Assembly: GCA_020723305.1 (NCBI GenBank)
Contig: DYJC01000009.1
Coordinates: 124,001-188,000, forward strand
From: Desulfosudis oleivorans
GTDB taxonomy: Bacteria; Desulfobacterota; Desulfobacteria; Desulfobacterales; SURF-7
DNA length: 64,000 bases
Direction: 5' to 3'
Position numbers and translations under genes: made by a program. Below, piece by piece: positions 30,402-38,915 of this stretch; within the stretch, counting starts at the first letter, position 1, and each line of letters opens with the position of its first letter. Under the pieces are notes generated by a model. That model had not been told where the DNA came from and did not search any database. It saw only the letters and a program-made list of their open reading frames with translations.

Positions 30402-30608
30402 ACCAGCACCTCCTCATCGTTGTTTATGAAACAAATTGCTGAATTCCGGTCATAATGCCGCAACACCTTGCAATTTATAATAAGCCGACAATCTATATAG
30501 ATAAATGAATAAATGCAAGAAAAAAATGAATATGATCTCGAATAGGAAAAAATCACATTCCATTATAACGATACCTGGTTAGGGTCGAACCCTGAATTTC
30601 AAGCATTA
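30402..30608. other. infC upstream region
   Basis: AT-rich leader between infC and the MITE copy. It contains the infC Shine-Dalgarno (30409-30414 on the minus strand) and the putative promoter at 30490-30518. thrS, often the gene before infC, is absent. No gene is supportable here. Confidence 0.5.
30490..30518 (-). promoter_or_regulatory. Possible promoter of the infC operon
   Basis: On the minus strand TTGCAT (30513-30518), a 17-bp spacer and TAGATT (30490-30495) give a moderate sigma-70 match (4/6 in each hexamer), about 90 bp before the infC start. Consensus match only; other AT-rich options exist nearby. Confidence 0.3.
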
Positions 30609-30730
30609 GAGCCAATTTCAAAAGTCTCTTATTGTAGTTCCGGCGAAAACTAAAATCCAGTATTTTCGGCTCTTTTCTGAGCACTAACTTTCGCCGATGT
30701 GACGCTTTATAATCGTTTTGAAATTGGCTC
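30609..30730 (-). mobile_element. MITE-like element, copy 1
   Basis: 122 bp bounded by perfect 15-bp terminal inverted repeats GAGCCAATTTCAAAA (30609-30623) and TTTTGAAATTGGCTC (30716-30730), flanked by a 4-bp direct repeat ATTA (30605-30608 and 30731-30734) that looks like a target-site duplication. An internal inverted pair (CGGCGAAA / TTTCGCCG) would let the element fold on itself. It is about 95% identical (6 differences) to the inverted copy at 37743-37864. No transposase is encoded. It supplies the last seven codons and stop of the PilZ gene at 30707-31135. It matches no named element that I recognise. Confidence 0.85.
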
Positions 30731-31135
30731 ATTATCCAATTTTTCAAAACAGGTTAACAGCTCCTTCTCCTTTTGAGACAAATTTTGAAATTTGACCCCC
30801 ACACCATTTCGATCCCTCCGTGCAACAACTGCCGATATTTTTAACGGTGATAATTTTTCTCCTGGTATCGTTACCCATATTACAATCTGCTGGCCAATTG
30901 AAAAGGATTCCCCGGCTTCAATATAGGCTCCGTTTGCACTTAGATTTTTTATGGGCTTTTCGCTGGAATAATCGTGTGTATCAAAATCAACAGAGATGGA
31001 ACATGTTTGCCTCGGATATTTCCGCTTCCATTTTGATGGTGTTTTTTTTAGTTGTTTCAAAAGTACGAGGAGTCGATCCCTTGACATCTCATCCAGAATT
31101 TCGTTTATTTGCTCAACAATCTGTTTTTTATTCAT
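30707..31135 (-). CDS. PilZ domain protein with C-terminus completed by the MITE
   Basis: 142 residues. An N-terminal helix (about 1-35) precedes a PilZ domain: KRKYPRQTCSISVDF carries the Arg-rich motif and IKNLSANGAYIEAG the NxSxxG motif, so c-di-GMP binding is likely. IVIWVTIPGEKLSPLKI and GVGVKFQNLSQKEKELL complete the barrel. The last seven residues (EPISKRL) and the stop codon come from the inserted 122-bp element, so the ancestral C-terminus was replaced there; the PilZ fold itself is intact. Confidence 0.85.
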   Translation of the reverse strand: MNKKQIVEQINEILDEMSRDRLLVLLKQLKKTPSKWKRKYPRQTCSISVDFDTHDYSSEKPIKNLSANGAYIEAGESFSIGQQIVIWVTIPGEKLSPLKISAVVARRDRNGVGVKFQNLSQKEKELLTCFEKLDNEPISKRL

Positions 31136-31278
31136 ATTGTTTTTGAAACCCGAGATACCCGTTAAACGAACAAATTTATTTCATATTTGAATAGCAAGAA
31201 GAATACTTTTTCCCCATGCCAATTTTTTCGACCATAAAACAATTTACTTCTCAAGTCAACCAAATGAATTTATAACTA

Positions 31279-31779
31279 TTATTGGTCAAGGGTATATTGG
31301 GCCAAAAGACTGTTTTTCCAATATGCATTGGCTGGGTTGTTAAAAAACCGTTTAAATAACAGAAGACTTTTTTCACGAAGAATATTTGAAACAATTATAA
31401 TCCTTGCATCACGATATAATGGCTTCAGATCTACCAGATTACAGCTAGCGCCACCACCCATTACATCCTCATAAGCATATACTATTTTTTGGATCCCACT
31501 CAAAATGATTGCACCAAAACACATCAGACATGGCTCCATTGTGCTGTATATCGTTAATTCATTTTTCTCCACTATCAATTTTTGCTCGCAGAGGCTTCTT
31601 AACGCGACCATTTCGGCGTGGTCCACTTCATTGAATGCTCCGTCAGCCGTACCCTTTCTCACGCCTGTTGCAATCACTTTTCTCTCATCTGCAATCACGC
31701 ACCCAACTGGAAATTCGCCTACCAAAAGAGCTTTTTCTGCTTGTGCGATCGCAATTTCCATAAAATATTCTTCGCGCAT
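31279..31779 (-). CDS. Cytidine/deoxycytidylate deaminase-family nucleoside deaminase
   Basis: 166 residues. Zinc-site motifs DHAEMVALRSL (HAE, about 53-63) and STMEPCLMCFGAI (PCxxC, about 79-91) define the family. GEFPVGCVIADERKVIATG is the usual N-terminus. The family covers tRNA adenosine deaminase TadA, guanine deaminase and relatives; the missing N of the TadA PRNHAE-type context and the DVMGGGASCN segment leave the substrate open. It is a single gene before the HsdR-N-like gene, in the same direction. Confidence 0.85.
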   Translation of the reverse strand: MREEYFMEIAIAQAEKALLVGEFPVGCVIADERKVIATGVRKGTADGAFNEVDHAEMVALRSLCEQKLIVEKNELTIYSTMEPCLMCFGAIILSGIQKIVYAYEDVMGGGASCNLVDLKPLYRDARIIIVSNILREKSLLLFKRFFNNPANAYWKNSLLAQYTLDQ

Positions 31780-31853
31780 TTGGCTTCCCTGTCGTATGCC
31801 TGAATTTTATGCTGTCACGAATTCAAATTCAATCTTATGTCAAAAACTTTCTG

Positions 31854-32480
31854 CTACTCCGATATCCTGCAAATACTGTCATCACATGGACAACGATCAT
31901 CCACTTCATATGCAAAGGCAATTCTGGATTCCATCTCCGCCCGGTCTCGTGAAATTTTTTTCCATTGATGGGTATTTCGAATCTTCAAAAGCTGATCTCT
32001 GCTCGGTATCATATTCAGACCATTACCGATAACATCCCCGCTTGAACCATTCATAATTTCAGCATCCATCCCATTTGTGACCACAACAATTGGAATCTGA
32101 AATCCGGAAACAATCCTTGAAATTGCTATCGTCGGCCTGCGTCTTGTTACAAGAGACCCAGGAGCATATTTGATCAACATACATTTTCTGTTCAACAACG
32201 TTATCAAAAAATCTAACGAAATGGCTGCCTTTCGACTGCCGGCCTGAAGAACAAGACGATACCGTGAAATGATATCGGATTTGAGATACTCTCTTTCTTC
32301 TACAAGCAGTCTGGATATTTTCTGTCGATACCTTTCATCATGTGTATCCTCCAATAACTCACCTGAAATATAATCAGAAAGTGTCCCCAACACTAAATGA
32401 TGGCCAACCATTTCATTACATCCACTTGATTTTGGGTTGCAAACAATAACATCAAAGCATCCATCAAAATGGATACTCAT
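31854..32480 (-). CDS. Orphan HsdR-N-terminal-like protein
   Basis: 208 residues. ERYRQKISRLLVEEREYLKSD followed by a beta-alpha nuclease-like core (LDFLITLLNRKCMLIKYAPG, VVVTNGMDAEIMNG) resembles the N-terminal nuclease fold of type I restriction R subunits (HSDR_N). The ExK dyad of the active site is not evident: IKYAPGSL stands where ECK is expected, so activity is doubtful. No HsdM, HsdS or helicase part is nearby. Stand-alone proteins of this type recur in deltaproteobacteria. Function unknown. Confidence 0.7.
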   Translation of the reverse strand: MSIHFDGCFDVIVCNPKSSGCNEMVGHHLVLGTLSDYISGELLEDTHDERYRQKISRLLVEEREYLKSDIISRYRLVLQAGSRKAAISLDFLITLLNRKCMLIKYAPGSLVTRRRPTIAISRIVSGFQIPIVVVTNGMDAEIMNGSSGDVIGNGLNMIPSRDQLLKIRNTHQWKKISRDRAEMESRIAFAYEVDDRCPCDDSICRISE

Positions 32481-32612
32481 TGTATTTATGTAGAGAATAC
32501 TATATTAGATGTAAAGCTACAAATAGTTCTTTACAAATATTTGAAGCTATGAATAACAGAAATGTTTGCTGATCTGATTATCTTTTTTTGATTTGTAATA
32601 GTAAATGTAATT

Positions 32613-33665
32613 ATGTCGATTCGAACCGATTTTGAAAAACGAGAAGAAAGTTTTCTTGCACTTGCAGGTTGTAAAAGTTCCGAGTCCCGTGGTCGGATAG
32701 TCCCTGAAGATCCCTGCCCTATAAGAACTGCGTTTCAACGGGACAGAGACCGAATCGTCTATTCAAATGCTTTTCGAAGATTAAAACACAAAACCCAGGT
32801 TTTTCTGTCCCCCCTTGGAGATCACTACCGTACCCGATTAACCCATACCCTGGAAGTTGCCGAAATCGCCAGAACCATTTCACGAGCCATGCGGCTCAAT
32901 GAAGATCTGGCAGAAGCAATTGCACTGGGGCACGATCTCGGACACACTCCCTTCGGGCATGGCGGTGAAATCGCACTGAAAGAAATTTATTCGCCTTCAT
33001 TTTCTCATAATGACCAAAGCTTACGGGTTGTGGATTACTTAGAAAACAAAGGCAAAGGACTCAACCTGACCTATGAGGTGAGAGATGGAATCCTGAAACA
33101 CTCAAAAGGATTTGGTGATATTATCCCTCAAGAGCCAAAAGACATGGCCTCCACTACAGAAGGTTGTATTGTCCGGATTTCAGATATCCTCGCCTATCTG
33201 AATCATGATCTGGACGACGCGGTTCGAAGCGGTGTCATCAAGCCGGAACAGATCCCGCAATCCTGCACCAGCGTGCTGGGACATACACATTCTGAAAGAG
33301 CGACCAACATGATCCGGGATATCGTCTTTTCCAGCAGAGGAAAAGACGGTGAAATTACCTTACAGATGAGTGATAAAATCTTATCCGCCATACTGAAACT
33401 CCGGCAATTCTTATATGATAATGTATACAGATCTCCTCAGGTTCATAAAGAGTTTTTAAAGGCAAAGAAAATACTTTCAGAGCTGTATTCCTATTTTATG
33501 GAAAATGAAGACCAGTTTAAAACCCAGTTGATCATCATGGAAATGGATGAAATTTCAAAAGATCAACCAATGGATAGAGTTGTCTGTGATTTTATTGCCA
33601 GCATGACAGACCGTTATGCAATGAATTTATATGAAAAGCTTTTTCTCCCCTCCCCTTTGGTATAA
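32613..33665 (+). CDS. Deoxyguanosinetriphosphate triphosphohydrolase-like protein
   Basis: 350 residues. HD-domain motifs are complete: YSNAFRRLKHKTQVF, RTRLTHTLEVAEIARTI (first H), GHDLGHTPFGHGGE (HD), HNDQSLRVVDYLE and SDILAYLNHDLDDA. It hydrolyses dNTPs to the nucleoside and triphosphate; the type 2 dGTPase-like subgroup fits the length. It is divergent from the HsdR-N-like gene (132-bp gap) and begins a plus-strand run with two cysteine-cluster genes. Fidelity or phage-defence roles are known for some relatives; not shown here. Confidence 0.93.
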   Translation: MSIRTDFEKREESFLALAGCKSSESRGRIVPEDPCPIRTAFQRDRDRIVYSNAFRRLKHKTQVFLSPLGDHYRTRLTHTLEVAEIARTISRAMRLNEDLAEAIALGHDLGHTPFGHGGEIALKEIYSPSFSHNDQSLRVVDYLENKGKGLNLTYEVRDGILKHSKGFGDIIPQEPKDMASTTEGCIVRISDILAYLNHDLDDAVRSGVIKPEQIPQSCTSVLGHTHSERATNMIRDIVFSSRGKDGEITLQMSDKILSAILKLRQFLYDNVYRSPQVHKEFLKAKKILSELYSYFMENEDQFKTQLIIMEMDEISKDQPMDRVVCDFIASMTDRYAMNLYEKLFLPSPLV

Positions 33666-33676
33666 TTTATATTCTT

Positions 33677-34261
33677 ATGAAATCCAACCCTGAAAAACGA
33701 AAAATTCTATTCCCTTTTTTGAATCGGTTAGCCGTCATCTTTTCGGACATGGATCACGCTTACCTTACATCATCCAGCCATTACGATTTTTGCTGCAAAG
33801 GGTGTGATGAAAATTGTTGTATGACCCATTTTTTCCACCATACTTATATGGAATATTTTTATATTCTTGAAGGAATCGGCAAACTGGATTCTTCCCTTTC
33901 AGCATCAATATATAAAAAAGCACAAGAAGCAAATCAAAAGGCAATCTCAACCATCCAACAAGGGGATAAGGTTCGCCTGATGTGCCCGCTGAACAGTAAT
34001 GGAATATGCCTGATATATAACTATCGCCCCATGATATGCAGAATGCACGGAATTCCGCATGAATTGAATGTCCCAGGGAAACAGACTGTCTTTGGAACAG
34101 GCTGTAAGGCTTTTGAAATTCAATGTGGAACAAAACCATACCTCCCGTTTGACCGGACACCTTTTTATATATCCATGGCGAATCTGGAAAAAGATATGAA
34201 ACAACAACTCGGAATCAGAGATAAATTTAAAAAAACCATTGCGCAAATGCTGATTGATTGA
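33677..34261 (+). CDS. YkgJ-family cysteine-cluster protein (1)
   Basis: 194 residues. Cysteines at FCCKGCDENCCM (about 37-48), then MCPLNSNGICLIYNYRPMICRMHG (quoted in parts), matching the CxxC-n-CC / CP..GC..RP..CR pattern of YkgJ-type zinc- or iron-binding domains. Function of the family is not established. It is 11 bp after the dGTPase gene and 1 bp before a second gene of the same family, so it is co-transcribed. It is less like the other two copies than they are to each other. Confidence 0.85.
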   Translation: MKSNPEKRKILFPFLNRLAVIFSDMDHAYLTSSSHYDFCCKGCDENCCMTHFFHHTYMEYFYILEGIGKLDSSLSASIYKKAQEANQKAISTIQQGDKVRLMCPLNSNGICLIYNYRPMICRMHGIPHELNVPGKQTVFGTGCKAFEIQCGTKPYLPFDRTPFYISMANLEKDMKQQLGIRDKFKKTIAQMLID

Positions 34262-34262
34262 C

Positions 34263-35048
34263 ATGAAATTTATAGATATTAAAAACCTGGATGAACGTTC
34301 CGGTTATCAACTTGCAGAAAATGATAGATTTTCCTTCCGTTGCCATCCGGATCTCACCTGTTTTAATCAATGTTGCAGGAACCTGAATCTGTATCTATAC
34401 CCATACGATATCATTCGTTTGAAAAATCATCTTCATATAACCTCGGATCAGTTTCTCGACCGTTTTGTTGATATTGTTTTACGGCCGGGGAATCATTTTC
34501 CTTCTGTTTTGTTAAAAATGTCTGAAACTGAAGAACGGACTTGTCCTTATTTACAAACCAAAGGGTGTTCCGTATATCCGGATCGACCGGACTCATGCCG
34601 CACCTTTCCTTTGGAGCAGGGGATTCTATCTTCTGTTGGAAATACGAAAATCCAAAAACTCATTCACTTTTTCCGTCCCCCGGATTTCTGCCTTGGCCGG
34701 CATGAACATCAACAGCTAACACCGCATGAGTGGGCTATTGATCAGGATGCAGTCGAATATAATAAAATGACGGCCGAGTGGGCCCAGATAAAAAAACTGT
34801 TCCAGAATAACCCCTGGGGAAAAGAAGGCCCTGACGGGAAGCAGGGTAAAATGGCTTTCATGTCCACTTATAATATGGATGAATTTCGAAATTTCGTTTT
34901 CCAAAGCAGTTTTCTGAGGCGGTATAAGGTAAAAACCCAACTGCTAAACCGGATTCAAGAAGATGAAGTCTGTTTGATGAAATTTGGATTTTCATGGGTA
35001 AAATTTTACTTGTTTGGAATAAAATCAAAGCAGATCCAAATACGATGA
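34263..35048 (+). CDS. YkgJ-family cysteine-cluster protein (2)
   Basis: About 261 residues from ATG at 34263, 1 bp after the previous stop (TTG at 34254 is possible). Motifs FRCHPDLTCFNQCCRNLN, LYPYDIIRLKNHL, RTCPYLQTKGCSVYPDRP and DSCRTFPLEQG align with the gene at 37006-37725 (FSCNKEVPCFNECCRDLN, LTPYDILRLKTAL, DRPGSCRTYPL), so the two are paralogues. Cysteine ligation of a metal is likely; function unknown. Confidence 0.85.
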   Translation: MKFIDIKNLDERSGYQLAENDRFSFRCHPDLTCFNQCCRNLNLYLYPYDIIRLKNHLHITSDQFLDRFVDIVLRPGNHFPSVLLKMSETEERTCPYLQTKGCSVYPDRPDSCRTFPLEQGILSSVGNTKIQKLIHFFRPPDFCLGRHEHQQLTPHEWAIDQDAVEYNKMTAEWAQIKKLFQNNPWGKEGPDGKQGKMAFMSTYNMDEFRNFVFQSSFLRRYKVKTQLLNRIQEDEVCLMKFGFSWVKFYLFGIKSKQIQIR

Positions 35049-35202
35049 CCAATAGAATTGAGAATTCTTTACAAATCGTATCCGTTGTCCATAATCAAAC
35101 GATGAATCAAATGATTGACACCCAGCAACCATTCGCCTATAATTGATTCCAATTAAAGCATCTCCTTACCAATATTTTTCCATAAAACCATTGATAAAAT
35201 CC

Positions 35203-36084
35203 ATGAATGAACCAGAAAATCAAAAAATTGCCGAGCTTTCCGCAAAAATAAAGTCCTTCCCATCCCTTCCTTCTGTTGTGAGTCATGTCCTGAAAATCAA
35301 GGCTGATCCAAAAAGCACAGTTGAAGACCTGATCGATGCAATCCGACCAGATCTGGCGCTCCACACTGCAATTCTGAAAATTTCGAACTCTGCCTTTTTC
35401 GGCCGGATGAGAAAGGTAAGTTCTCTAAAGCAGGCGCTTATGGTTATCGGATTTTCTGAAATTCAAAATATTGTATTATCCAAGGCTGTATTCAACAGTT
35501 TTAAAAAAATTCAATCAAACAGCGCCTTTCGGATTAATGAATTCTGGGAACACTCTTTTTTATGCGGTCTTGCCTCGAAAATTGTTTCAAATGACCTTTC
35601 TGAAGACAGCAATGATTTTTTCGTTGCCGGACTGATTCATGATATTGGAAAGCTTGTCCTTCTAATGGCAATGCCCCATGATTTTGAGATGATCGTTCAT
35701 GAATCCGATCCATTTCCGATGAATACTGCAACAGCTGAGAAAAAAATAATCGGAATCACCCATGATCAAATCGGTATGAGTCTGCTGATGCGATGGATGT
35801 TTCCTGAAAATCTGATCAAGGCGGTTGGTTTTCATCATCAGCCGGAAAAGGCGGATGAAAATCGACTATTCCCTGTCATTGTTCATATAGCCAATTCCCT
35901 CTCACATATGGTTCAGAGCCTTGAATATAAAGACAGAAACAAGGAAGTTGAATTTTCCAAAATCATTCATACCGGTAAATTGAACGGCCTGGATCTGAGC
36001 AAAAAAAAACTAAATCAGTATATAGAAGATATTGCGGTCCAAAAAGAACAGGAAAAAGATATCCTTGAATTGTTTCTCTCCTGA
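35203..36084 (+). CDS. HDOD domain signalling protein
   Basis: About 293 residues from ATG at 35203; a TTG at 35143 would add 20 residues without HDOD sequence. Core motifs: SFPSLPSVVSHVLKIKADP, LHTAILKISNSAFFGRMRKV, QALMVIGFSEIQNIVLS and a degenerate HD site in FVAGLIHDIGKLVL, then AVGFHHQPEKAD. HDOD proteins are catalytically uncertain HD relatives used in signalling and motility. It follows the YkgJ genes; a hairpin at 36105 may end this unit. Confidence 0.9.
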   Translation: MNEPENQKIAELSAKIKSFPSLPSVVSHVLKIKADPKSTVEDLIDAIRPDLALHTAILKISNSAFFGRMRKVSSLKQALMVIGFSEIQNIVLSKAVFNSFKKIQSNSAFRINEFWEHSFLCGLASKIVSNDLSEDSNDFFVAGLIHDIGKLVLLMAMPHDFEMIVHESDPFPMNTATAEKKIIGITHDQIGMSLLMRWMFPENLIKAVGFHHQPEKADENRLFPVIVHIANSLSHMVQSLEYKDRNKEVEFSKIIHTGKLNGLDLSKKKLNQYIEDIAVQKEQEKDILELFLS

Positions 36085-36104
36085 TATTTAATGCATCCGA
36101 CACA

Positions 36105-36130
36105 CGGAGTCATGCCCCCATGACAGTCCG
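36105..36130 (+). terminator. Hairpin after the HDOD gene
   Basis: GTCATG-CCCC-CATGAC with outer CGGA / TCCG pairing across a 2-nt bulge, starting 21 bp after the HDOD stop, followed by the AT-rich TTAATAATTATT. It lies between convergent genes. The tail is weak in T, so termination efficiency is doubtful. Confidence 0.45.
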
Positions 36131-36180
36131 TTAATAATTATTGATCTCGACCAATGAATATTGCGCTCATTTAAAAAGTC

Positions 36181-36993
36181 TCAAACAACCCCTTTCGGCA
36201 TCGGAAAAACCCTTTCTCCGCCAAGTACATAGCCTCCATCAAGACGAAGAACCGCGCCTGTCAGAAAAGGTGCATCGTTGATCATAAATAAAACAGCCTT
36301 AACAACATCCTCAATCTTTCCAATCCGGCCACAAAGGGTATGATCCAGAATCGCTTTTTTCTGATCATCCGTCAAAAGTCCCCATCCCCTGGTGTTCTCC
36401 CCATGCCTTGTTTCCACAAATCCAAGCATAATTTCATTTACCCTGATCTCCGGAGAGCCAAGCCTGGCCCAGGTTTCGGTTAACAGGGAAACACCCCGGT
36501 TGGCAGCAGAATATCCTTCATTAAAAACAAAACTGGCCGGCCCGGACCTTCCAACAATCCCTGCAATAGAGGAAAAATTGATGATCAGCCCGTTACTGGA
36601 ATTTTTTAGATAAGGAAAGGCTGACTCAAATACCCACTGTTTTGCCCGAAGCGTTGTGGAAAGCTCAAGATCCCATTGATCTTGACGATATGGTCCATGA
36701 ACAACCGGCCATCCACCTCTCTCAATGTTGTTTATCAAAATATCCAGTCTGCCAAAATGATCGATAACCTTCTTTAGTAATTCTGGAATACTTTCCAGGT
36801 CCAACAGGTTAACCTTCAAAACAAGGTGCACCTCACCAATAGATTGGAAATCCGCTTCCATCTCTGTAAGACTGTCTTCCCAATCATAATAAGTCAGGGC
36901 AACTCTTATCCCTTGCTTGGCAAGGGCAAGACCGATACCCTTGCCGATTCCCTTGATCGCTCCCAATACCAAGGCAACTCTTTTCTCTTCCAT
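36181..36993 (-). CDS. Short-chain dehydrogenase-like protein, active-site Lys replaced
   Basis: About 270 residues from ATG at 36993, with GAAGGA at the right distance; ATG at 37002 lies too close to it. SDR features: cofactor motif GAIKGIGKGIGLALAKQG (TGxxxGxG variant), INNIERGG in place of NNAG, and catalytic FSSIAG. The usual YxxxK is GYSAANRG, with Asn where the catalytic Lys should be. This may abolish normal reductase activity or alter the mechanism. It is downstream of the third YkgJ gene, and likely in one operon with it. Confidence 0.85.
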   Translation of the reverse strand: MEEKRVALVLGAIKGIGKGIGLALAKQGIRVALTYYDWEDSLTEMEADFQSIGEVHLVLKVNLLDLESIPELLKKVIDHFGRLDILINNIERGGWPVVHGPYRQDQWDLELSTTLRAKQWVFESAFPYLKNSSNGLIINFSSIAGIVGRSGPASFVFNEGYSAANRGVSLLTETWARLGSPEIRVNEIMLGFVETRHGENTRGWGLLTDDQKKAILDHTLCGRIGKIEDVVKAVLFMINDAPFLTGAVLRLDGGYVLGGERVFPMPKGVV

Positions 36994-37005
36994 GTAAAGC
37001 ATCCT

Positions 37006-37725
37006 TCAGCTAAAAAGTCTATCCTTCAGCCAATCTAAACCAAATCTGAGCAAGGTTGTGTCATTCTGTAAAGATTCCTTCTTGCTTGTATCCAGATCCA
37101 ATCCATCAAAAAATCCTTTTTCAAAAACATGTCTCTTAAAATTATCCAAATCATAACATACCATATGAAAAAGATGTCTTGACTTCACATCCAGAGGCCC
37201 TGGTTTCCGTTGGTTTTTTATGCTGATAATCTCCATGAGAAGATCATTCATCTCGTTATAAATAAGCAGCTCTTGGGTGTGGATCCAATCCCGGATAACT
37301 ATTTTTTTGTTTTGCCGGAATCCCTGACAATGAGATTCTTTAATCAATGCCCAGTGCTGTGTAATCAGCCCTGTTTCTCGCGAACGGGATATAAGCCTTG
37401 CAAGAGGATACGTCCGGCAAGATCCGGGCCTGTCTTTGTAGACACGACATCCATCTGATGTAACAAAAGGGCAGATAAGCTCTTTTTGATCTGCCGGTTT
37501 CAGCGTCACGACCGGAAGTCCGGATTCCGGCCCGGTATGATTCAGGGTATATTCTTTTAAAAATTGAGTTGATGTCATTCCAAGGGCGGTTTTCAGGCGC
37601 AATATATCATATGGCGTTAAAAATTGATTCAAATCCCGGCAGCACTCATTGAAGCAGGGCACTTCTTTGTTACAGGAAAACTGGAAGGTATCGTCAAGAC
37701 AGATTGGGGTCATTTCATCGTTCAT
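37006..37725 (-). CDS. YkgJ-family cysteine-cluster protein (3)
   Basis: 239 residues with an AAGGAAA Shine-Dalgarno. Motifs FSCNKEVPCFNECCRDLN, FLTPYDILRLKTALGM, LICPFVTSDGCRVYKDRPGS (quoted to residue G-S) and CRTYPLARL match the paralogue at 34263-35048. It probably binds a metal through these cysteines. The second MITE copy ends 17 bp upstream of the start codon, between the gene and any ancestral promoter. Confidence 0.85.
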   Translation of the reverse strand: MNDEMTPICLDDTFQFSCNKEVPCFNECCRDLNQFLTPYDILRLKTALGMTSTQFLKEYTLNHTGPESGLPVVTLKPADQKELICPFVTSDGCRVYKDRPGSCRTYPLARLISRSRETGLITQHWALIKESHCQGFRQNKKIVIRDWIHTQELLIYNEMNDLLMEIISIKNQRKPGPLDVKSRHLFHMVCYDLDNFKRHVFEKGFFDGLDLDTSKKESLQNDTTLLRFGLDWLKDRLFS

Positions 37726-37742
37726 TTTTTTCCTTCTTTATT

Positions 37743-37864
37743 GAGCCAATTTCAAAACTTTTATAAAGCGTCACACCGGCGAAAGTCAGTGCTCAGAAAA
37801 GAGCCGAAAATACTGGATTTTCGTTTTCGCCGGAACTACAATAAGAGACTTTTTAAATTGGCTC
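37743..37864 (+). mobile_element. MITE-like element, copy 2
   Basis: 122 bp in the opposite orientation to copy 1 and about 95% identical to its reverse complement. Terminal repeats are GAGCCAATTTCAAAA (37743-37757) and TTTTTAAATTGGCTC (37850-37864, one mismatch); the 4-bp direct repeat TATT flanks both ends (37739-37742 and 37865-37868), consistent with a target-site duplication. An internal 9-bp inverted pair CCGGCGAAA / TTTCGCCGG is intact. It inserted 17 bp upstream of the third YkgJ gene and may affect its transcription. One frame is open across it, which is also true of copy 1. Confidence 0.85.
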
Positions 37865-38163
37865 TATTGTATATTCGATTATCTTTTGATACATATCTCT
37901 ACAATTTGAACATCTCCGATAGCTCTGTTCATTATTCGTTACCACCGACATCAAAAAAAATCCATTATTATAAAACTGCACGATGTTAGTTTCGATATGG
38001 ATTTGATGTATGGCATTCAATAGGGGAGTCTAAAAAAAGAAAACCCCTGTTTCCGAGTTCCACTATATATTGTTATTAAAAATTAAATTATACTACATAT
38101 TGGAATAAAATTTGATTCTTTAGAATTGCTTATAACCAGTGGATTTTAGTTGCGCAAAAGTAC
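37865..38163. other. AT-rich intergenic region between the MITE and aprBA
   Basis: About 300 bp, very AT-rich, with no gene, hairpin of note or repeat recognised. It leads into the putative aprBA promoter at 38164. Confidence 0.5.
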
Positions 38164-38477: not shown

Positions 38478-38915
38478 ATGCCAAGCTTTGTAATTACTGA
38501 AAAATGTGACGGATGCAAAGGCGGGGATAAAACAGCATGTATGTACATTTGCCCCAATGATCTCATGGTTTTAGATCCCAATGCAATGAAGGCGTATAAT
38601 CAAGAGCCGGATCAGTGCTGGGAATGTTTTTCTTGTGTAAAAATCTGCCCCACTCAGGCAATCGAAGTCAGAGGATACTCAGACTTTGTGCCGATGGGAA
38701 GCAGCATTATGCCGATGATGGGTACCGAGGATGTTATGTGGACCTGTAAATTCAGAAACGGACTCGTGAAACGATTTAAATTCCCCATTCGAACCACTCC
38801 TGAAGGCGCTGCAAATGCGTATCCGAATCTGAAAGGTAAAGATCTTAATTCCGGACTGCTTTCAACAGAAGAAGCGGATGGCTTTAAACTGGTCAAACCG
38901 CTTGCAACCGTTTAA
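38478..38915 (+). CDS. aprB: Adenylylsulfate reductase beta subunit
   Basis: 145 residues, with TAGGAGG 10 bp before the ATG. Two [4Fe-4S] sets are visible: CDGCKGGDKTACMYICPND (about 9-27) with the characteristic long insertion, and CWECFSCVKICP (about 49-60). It relays electrons to the FAD of AprA for reduction of APS to AMP and sulfite in the cytoplasm. The aprB-aprA order is the usual one for Desulfobacterota. Confidence 0.98.
   Translation: MPSFVITEKCDGCKGGDKTACMYICPNDLMVLDPNAMKAYNQEPDQCWECFSCVKICPTQAIEVRGYSDFVPMGSSIMPMMGTEDVMWTCKFRNGLVKRFKFPIRTTPEGAANAYPNLKGKDLNSGLLSTEEADGFKLVKPLATV

Follow-up and report, generated by a model that had tools for sequence, protein, structure and literature searches.

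The window analysed here is a stretch of 64,000 nucleotides (G000:C33:124001-188000) from the assembly of the sulfate-reducing bacterium Desulfosudis oleivorans, order Desulfobacterales (G000; 5.40 Mb in 47 contigs, 97.87% complete), and it contains two copies of a short repeated element which lie in inverted orientation and differ at 6 of 122 positions (Table 1). These coordinates, the orientation, the number of differences and the flanking 4-bp repeats ATTA and TATT had been reported in a first-pass annotation of the sequence, and all were recovered exactly. The 15-bp terminal inverted repeats (TIRs) that it described were likewise borne out, the sequence GAGCCAATTTCAAAA being perfect at three of the four ends in the window and carrying a single mismatch at the fourth. 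Short, bounded by TIRs and devoid of a transposase gene, both copies have the features of a miniature inverted-repeat transposable element (MITE). A search for the TIR inside the window alone is uninformative (10 matches with up to 3 mismatches, against 6.95 expected; 15 of 100 shuffles reach 10), and an Rfam scan of positions 30500-38000 gave no match (E up to 0.1).

Table 1. Features of the two MITE copies and of related elements. Positions are those of the window unless a locus or contig is named; the positions of the palindromic halves were counted from the sequence.
Feature	Position	Strand	Remarks
Target duplication ATTA, left of copy 1	30605..30608		4 bp; empty site: single ATTA in G002, ATCA in G003
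MITE copy 1	30609..30730	+	122 bp; 3 differences from the consensus of the 64 copies of 122 bp
Copy 1, left TIR GAGCCAATTTCAAAA	30609..30623	+	0 mismatches
Copy 1, eroded CGTC-type REP, inverted dimer half 1	30633..30660	+	tag TGTA; intact counterpart in the 142-bp copies
Copy 1, eroded CGTC-type REP, inverted dimer half 2	30677..30704	-	tag CGTC
Copy 1, right TIR	30716..30730	-	0 mismatches
Target duplication ATTA, right of copy 1	30731..30734		4 bp
PilZ-domain gene	30707..31135	-	frame now terminating within copy 1; tail EPISKRL
Target duplication TATT, left of copy 2	37739..37742		4 bp; single TATT in G002 and G003
MITE copy 2	37743..37864	-	122 bp; inverted relative to copy 1; 5 differences from the consensus
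Copy 2, TIR	37743..37757	+	0 mismatches
Copy 2, eroded CGTC-type REP	37769..37796	+	tag CGTC
Copy 2, eroded CGTC-type REP, second dimer half	37813..37840	-	
Copy 2, other TIR	37850..37864	-	1 mismatch
Target duplication TATT, right of copy 2	37865..37868		4 bp
Second shell with CGTC REP core, host genome	L392, L393, L396, L397, L403, L288:3535-3682		ends CTCGATGTTCAAGTTTTTT
Repeat of about 98 bp, G000	C34:58626, C13:36139, C21:20370, C44:109101		86-87% identical

In the genome as a whole the TIR was matched 475 times with at most 2 mismatches, against 15 matches for the reversed pattern, which at two ends per copy amounts to about 230 copies. A sample consisting of the window and sixteen 20-kb stretches chosen regardless of TIR matches contained 15 copies in 384,000 bases, or about 210 per genome, and the number of dispersed copies in the host genome can thus be placed at roughly 210-230. 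We collected 97 distinct copies, most of them found via TIR or BLAST matches; 64 are 122 bp long, with a mean identity of 95.2% to their consensus, and the rest measure 96-166 bp. Direct repeats of 4 bp flank 69 of the 97 and repeats of 5 bp flank 6, and the remaining 22 are without. When only the 93 copies whose TIRs each have no more than 2 mismatches are considered, the counts are 67 four-bp and 6 five-bp duplications, compared with 1.7 and 0.3 when the flanks are re-paired, and the duplications differ between dispersed copies. The check proposed at the outset, that copies elsewhere in the genome should show consistent boundaries and duplications, is passed, with duplications at 75 of the 97 although not at the other 22; the rule of 4 bp has to be widened to admit the 5-bp cases, which the first-pass annotation had not seen. 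According to a simple open reading frame (ORF) caller, 73 of the 82 copies with enough flank (15 of the 97 were dropped) are intergenic and 9 lie within ORFs, whereas 21.5% of random positions (n=1640) are intergenic.

A 10.5-kb query around both copies retrieved syntenic DNA in all three congeners (G001, G002 and G003). In G002 and G003 the two sites are empty, each with a single copy of the target (Table 1), and there is no insert at either site in G001, where the alignment is gapped. G002 and G003 hold many copies of the MITE elsewhere in their genomes, and the two insertions in the window are therefore specific to the host lineage. Single, unduplicated targets of this kind in relatives had been named as a further check, and together with the abundance of dispersed copies and their differing duplications they support the earlier reading of independent transposition with duplication of 4 bp.

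The ends of the element are found well beyond the host, the pattern GAGCCAATT[TG]CAAAA being present in 81 of 389 genomes of the Desulfobacterales and in 43 of 150 genera. Outside the host genus, the interiors between such ends are different, and some of these elements have 4-bp duplications (L087, L089, L107 and L111). These four and L095 are elements of 142-155 bp with a like TIR and an interior unrelated to the palindromic core described below, and by our own reading of their flanks 4 of the 5 have 4-bp duplications. A complete element of 1455 bp is present in another genome of the order (G240, record DAIEFO010000114.1), with the ends GAGCCAATTGCAAAACCTCC and GAGGTAATTGCAAAACCTCC, the duplication ATGT and a transposase of 363 amino acids (aa) matching the Pfam families DDE_Tnp_1, DUF772 and DDE_Tnp_1_6; its DDE domain (PF01609) scores 52.2 bits against a cut-off of 23. 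The TIR of the MITE agrees with this element at 14 of 15 bases, and both duplicate 4 bp. The nearest plasmid relatives of the transposase that carry a family name are annotated as IS1182 and are 39-48% identical to it, and two of the three examined, from Comamonas (TGGT) and ISUnCu17 of Aeromonas (ATGA), have like ends and a 4-bp duplication. ISUnCu17, which is of the IS1182 type, shares with the host MITE ends that read GAGCC..TTGCAAAA as well as the size of the duplication, and its DDE transposase is related to that of G240 (43% identity over 99% of the query); unlike the MITE, elements of this kind are autonomous and about 1.5 kb long, and searches of the host genome gave no copy. Judged by their ends (14 of 15 bases) and by duplication size (4 bp), the copies in the window can be classed as putative IS1182-type MITEs.

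Several observations weigh against this assignment. The TIR of the G240 element is off at one base in fifteen, and one of its own ends at more; beyond the TIR, the MITE and this element share nothing. The best NCBIfam model for the G240 transposase is IS1182, though far below its cut-off (73.7 of 270 bits), and the IS5_4 model follows closely (69.9 of 140). No such end was seen in a third plasmid relative, from Acinetobacter (L215), and a like pair of TIRs was seen in only 18 of the 41 loci examined among 54 from named genomes, 7 of the 18 with a duplication of 4 or 5 bp (by our own count). In the host genome, no IS1182-type transposase was found with the 363-aa protein as query (E 1e-5), and the IS1182 profile NF033551 had no match there (E 10). 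To these must be added the 22 collected copies that lack a duplication.

The first-pass annotation had predicted a helper transposase elsewhere in the genome and had suggested a search for an insertion sequence (IS) with the same ends and 4-bp duplications. The search succeeded in G240 and not in the host: the prediction stands in so far as a matching IS1182-type element exists in other genomes of the order, and fails in that no helper was found in the 97.87%-complete assembly of the host itself. PF01609 occurs there at two places, neither with MITE ends, other transposase families not having been searched. One of them (L061, 569 aa) was ruled out as a helper by its different ends; the other (L062) scores below the cut-off and has no TIR with up to 2 mismatches within 3 kb, only one match with 3 mismatches. 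Matches to the IS1182 profile in G001 (L270) and G003 (L271) have ends that differ from those of the MITE, and for the match in G002 (L272) no ends were obtained. Among the sequence listed for nine loci of the host with a solitary end, no long element was recognised between solitary TIRs; most of these loci are copies with one degraded end, and one is at a contig edge. The helper may have been lost from the host or be missing from the assembly; an assembly gap seems the less likely reason, since broken copies in Desulfatibacillum alkenivorans, of the same order, still leave pieces at contig ends.

The interior of the MITE is an inverted pair of palindromes. The consensus of four sister copies of 142 bp, one of which differs a lot, contains an intact inverted dimer, CGTCACACCGGCGAAGGCCGGTGTCCAG ... 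CTGGATTCCGGCCTTCGCCGGAATGACA, which has every part of the published definition of CGTC-tagged repetitive extragenic palindromic (REP) sequences: the tag, an 8-bp stem, a 4-base loop, a CCA tail and the inverted dimer form. This class was described by Di Nocera et al. in 2013, with tag CGTC or TGTC; it includes dRS3 of Neisseria and RPE-4/6 of Rickettsia, was reported from 5 phyla, and was presented as apparently without a dedicated transposase (PMC3733652, as excerpted). The core in the host shares the published tag, stem, loop, tail and dimer form. In both window copies and in the 122-bp consensus the stems are broken, which makes these derived rather than intact. The inner hairpin is an eroded CGTC-tagged REP dimer of separate origin and not part of the IS1182-type transposon. 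The internal inverted pairs on which the first-pass annotation had based a long hairpin are thus present, but as a nested element and not merely as a property of the MITE.

The exact 25-base REP core is found in 32 of 146 genomes of the order. Of its 19 places in the host, 11 are in the IS1182-type shell, 7 in an unrelated shell and 1 in neither. This second shell has the ends CTCGATGTTCAAGTTTTTT and a length of 145-167 bp (one of the seven copies has the left end only), and by our own reading of the flanks 4 of the 6 complete copies have 5-bp duplications. A copy similar to it was seen in another genome (L322). Further shells were found around the core in other genera, one set (L305, L312, L313, L328, L329 and L330) with, for instance, ends ..CTCGTAAAAAGTC or like it in L305, L313 and L329, and another kind in L301, L302, L306 and L324. 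A single kind of palindrome dimer is thus lodged in a number of MITE-like shells that are unrelated to one another. The H. neapolitanus CGTC-1 dimers are described as occurring within 41-bp palindromes (PMC3733652); in the host, unlike in the excerpted part of that description, the palindrome around the REPs is identified as a transposable element, for which both duplications and empty sites are seen.

Taken as a whole, each copy is best explained as a non-autonomous IS1182-type MITE carrying an eroded CGTC-REP dimer of separate origin, an explanation in which we have high confidence. An IS1182-type DDE transposase, a type suggested by the ends, would act in trans to move the TIR-bounded 122-bp unit, mostly into intergenic, AT-rich targets, of which 4 (sometimes 5) bp would be duplicated on insertion. 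The REP inverted dimer would have been inserted into, or captured by, an ancestral MITE, and it is most likely the TIRs and not the REP that drove the burst of 122-bp copies, because in the 122-bp consensus the REP stems are eroded and the TIRs near perfect. Within this subfamily the TIRs also vary least (about 2%, against 5-9% in the interior), and it must be held against this figure that it partly results from selecting copies by TIR.

It is unlikely that the helper is instead a transposase of another family, for example of the IS5 type, with convergently similar ends. Such a helper would fit the failure to find an IS1182-type transposase in the host, the almost equal scores of the G240 transposase under the IS1182 and IS5 models and the limited number of transposase families for which the host was searched. 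However, PF01609 spans many DDE families, including that of the G240 transposase, and yet matches the host at just two places, both of which lack such ends, and the agreement of 14 of 15 TIR bases and of the duplication size with the G240 element also speaks for an IS1182-type helper. A spread of the 122-bp unit by the REP's own machinery, be it a GIY-YIG nuclease of the kind described below or another enzyme, with passive outer TIRs, is very improbable and can be regarded as largely refuted: REP dimers do occur without the IS1182-type shell (L326) and inside other shells, but the duplications adjoin the TIRs and not the REPs, it is the REP stems that are eroded in the 122-bp consensus and the TIRs that vary least, the same TIRs in other genera enclose interiors without such a REP, and the host genome yielded no member of the GIY-YIG subfamily. 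That the two copies are similar by chance, or are parts of a larger duplicated segment, has nothing in its favour and next to no probability, being refuted by the different flanks and duplications at the two sites, the congeners without insert at both and the genome-wide counts of TIRs and duplications.

The TIR-bounded 122-bp MITE is in itself of an ordinary kind, one more high-copy family whose transposon pedigree has been traced. Among the matches listed for MITE together with Desulfobacter or IS1182, the nearest published case is MITEPye1 of Paracoccus yeei, the TIRs of which resemble those of IS1182-family elements (ISPye18) according to the excerpted text of its description (PMC11578231). 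Like MITEPye1, the host MITE has direct repeats, is mostly intergenic and can fold into a long stem-loop. MITEPye1 is present in 1-3 copies per chromosome, unlike the roughly 210-230 copies in the host; the same excerpts do not mention a REP dimer, whereas the host MITE carries one; and a cognate IS is present in some P. yeei strains, whereas that of the host MITE was not found in the host (PMC11578231).

CGTC REPs are also associated with a gene. A small GIY-YIG gene lies between inverted REPs in L303, L316 and L319; the protein is a nuclease of about 95 aa with PF01541 as its only Pfam hit. A search of 291 genomes of the order found this subfamily in 57, including the congener G001, and not in G000, G002 or G003. 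In the unit of G001 ten bases separate the start codon from one REP, and the other, inverted one directly adjoins the stop codon. The flanks were tested with a tblastn-based script at 46 loci, 30 from Desulfobacterales and 16 from a plasmid collection with 31 matching records. Inverted repeats that agree at 17/20 or better and lie no more than 150 bp from the gene were present at 20 of the 30 and 13 of the 16 loci, respectively, compared with 5 of 252 shifted positions. Outward-facing tagged REPs were present on both sides of the gene at 22 of the 46 loci, on one side at 13 and on neither at 11, while the corresponding numbers for shifted controls (n=174) were 2, 29 and 143. The 22 comprise 14 loci from Desulfobacterales and 8 others, from Aeromonas, Shinella (3), Neorhizobium, Rhizobium, Azospirillum and Sphingobium. 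When the 46 proteins are grouped at 90% identity, 38 clusters result, 20 of which have a both-sided member. No tagged REP was found on either side at the loci of Photobacterium, Planktothrix, Novosphingobium and two further Rhizobium; the Novosphingobium locus has a 20/20 inverted repeat that starts with CGTC, yet no tagged REP. The Neisseria locus shows an inverted repeat without a pair of tagged REPs, and shifted controls there score nearly as high (18, 16, 16).

Among the 30 best PF01541 loci, 6 had no match, 17 fell outside the subfamily (none positive for the inverted repeats) and 7 inside (4 positive), with the division made by our own E-value line. The residues Tyr7, Tyr18, Arg28, His32, Glu65 and Asn84, which we regard as the standard catalytic positions of GIY-YIG enzymes, are conserved in 45 or more of 46-47 sequences, and there are no stops. 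Co-occurrence of core and gene is modest among the 146 genomes (32 with the core, 22 with the gene, 9 with both; one-sided Fisher 0.024) in a test that covered one REP variant, the exact core, and assumed that all 146 are among the 291. The protein had no match in phage records (E 1e-8). G003 lacks the unit at the orthologous place, the flanks being too divergent to fix its ends or a duplication. To the right of the GIY-YIG unit (L404) lies a repeat of about 98 bp, beginning with one REP, which recurs at several places in G000 (Table 1). Related GIY-YIG genes (L341, L343 and L349) have inverted repeats on their flanks that belong to other widespread types (GTCATTGCGAGCGGAGCGA, GTCATTTCGACCGTAGGGA), and the link with GIY-YIG genes may therefore reach beyond CGTC REPs.

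The excerpts of PMC3733652 report no dedicated enzyme for CGTC REPs, whereas here a GIY-YIG gene is flanked by them, and the nuclease of about 95 aa is a candidate for the missing enzyme. The arrangement resembles that of REPtrons, known together with REPINs and REP-associated tyrosine transposases (RAYTs), in which a single transposase gene is flanked by the same REPs, tagged GTAG (PMC3733652, as excerpted). Inverted REP pairs and a single gene between like REPs are common to both, and genes flanked on both sides make up 22 of the 46 loci here; the tag is CGTC and not GTAG, and the flanked gene encodes a GIY-YIG nuclease rather than a RAYT, PF01541 being the only Pfam match. None of the matches listed in openly licensed literature links GIY-YIG proteins to palindromic repeats or REPs in bacteria, which is weak evidence of absence.

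On a tentative reading, to which we give somewhat less than an even chance, CGTC REPs, dRS3 and RPE-4/6 included, would be the ends of a compact mobile unit encoding this nuclease, which would cut REP hairpins and spread inverted dimers as a counterpart of the RAYT/REP system; the dimers would then have entered several MITE families and been amplified again by those transposons. GIY-YIG nucleases are known as homing enzymes, and also from repair. The gene could instead be carried along as a passenger, or encode a homing nuclease for which REPs, moved by something else, serve as landing sites, and the chance of this too comes close to one half without reaching it. The loci without a tagged REP on either side (11 of 46), the failure to find such a gene in a host rich in REPs and the modest co-occurrence across genomes would all suit a passenger or homing gene. 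It would less readily account for the best units, in which one REP directly adjoins the stop codon and the other is ten bases from the start codon, for REP arms that face outward as in REP dimers, or for the local REP variant, which varies with the taxon and yet at many loci is the same to either side of the gene.

Both insertions in the window lie close to genes. Copy 1 is at the 3' end of the PilZ-domain gene, to which it supplies a new in-frame stop and the seven-residue tail; read from the flanks of the copy, the frame without the insert would stop one codon beyond the insertion point. Copy 2 starts 18 bp from the start of the gene at 37006-37725 (- strand), just upstream of its likely ribosome-binding site. 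A gene with a match to the adenylylsulfate (APS) reductase beta subunit lies at 38478.

It is the nested REP and its link with a GIY-YIG gene that are of interest beyond an ordinary MITE. If a GIY-YIG nuclease does move CGTC REPs, this class of enzymes would gain a role as a spreader of bacterial palindromes, and the question of the missing enzyme could be put to the test with no more than a small protein and a hairpin of 28 bp. The nested arrangement shows how REP dimers can be spread once more as cargo of unrelated MITEs, and it may explain the palindromes around REP dimers that were noted in 2013, as far as the excerpted description goes (PMC3733652).

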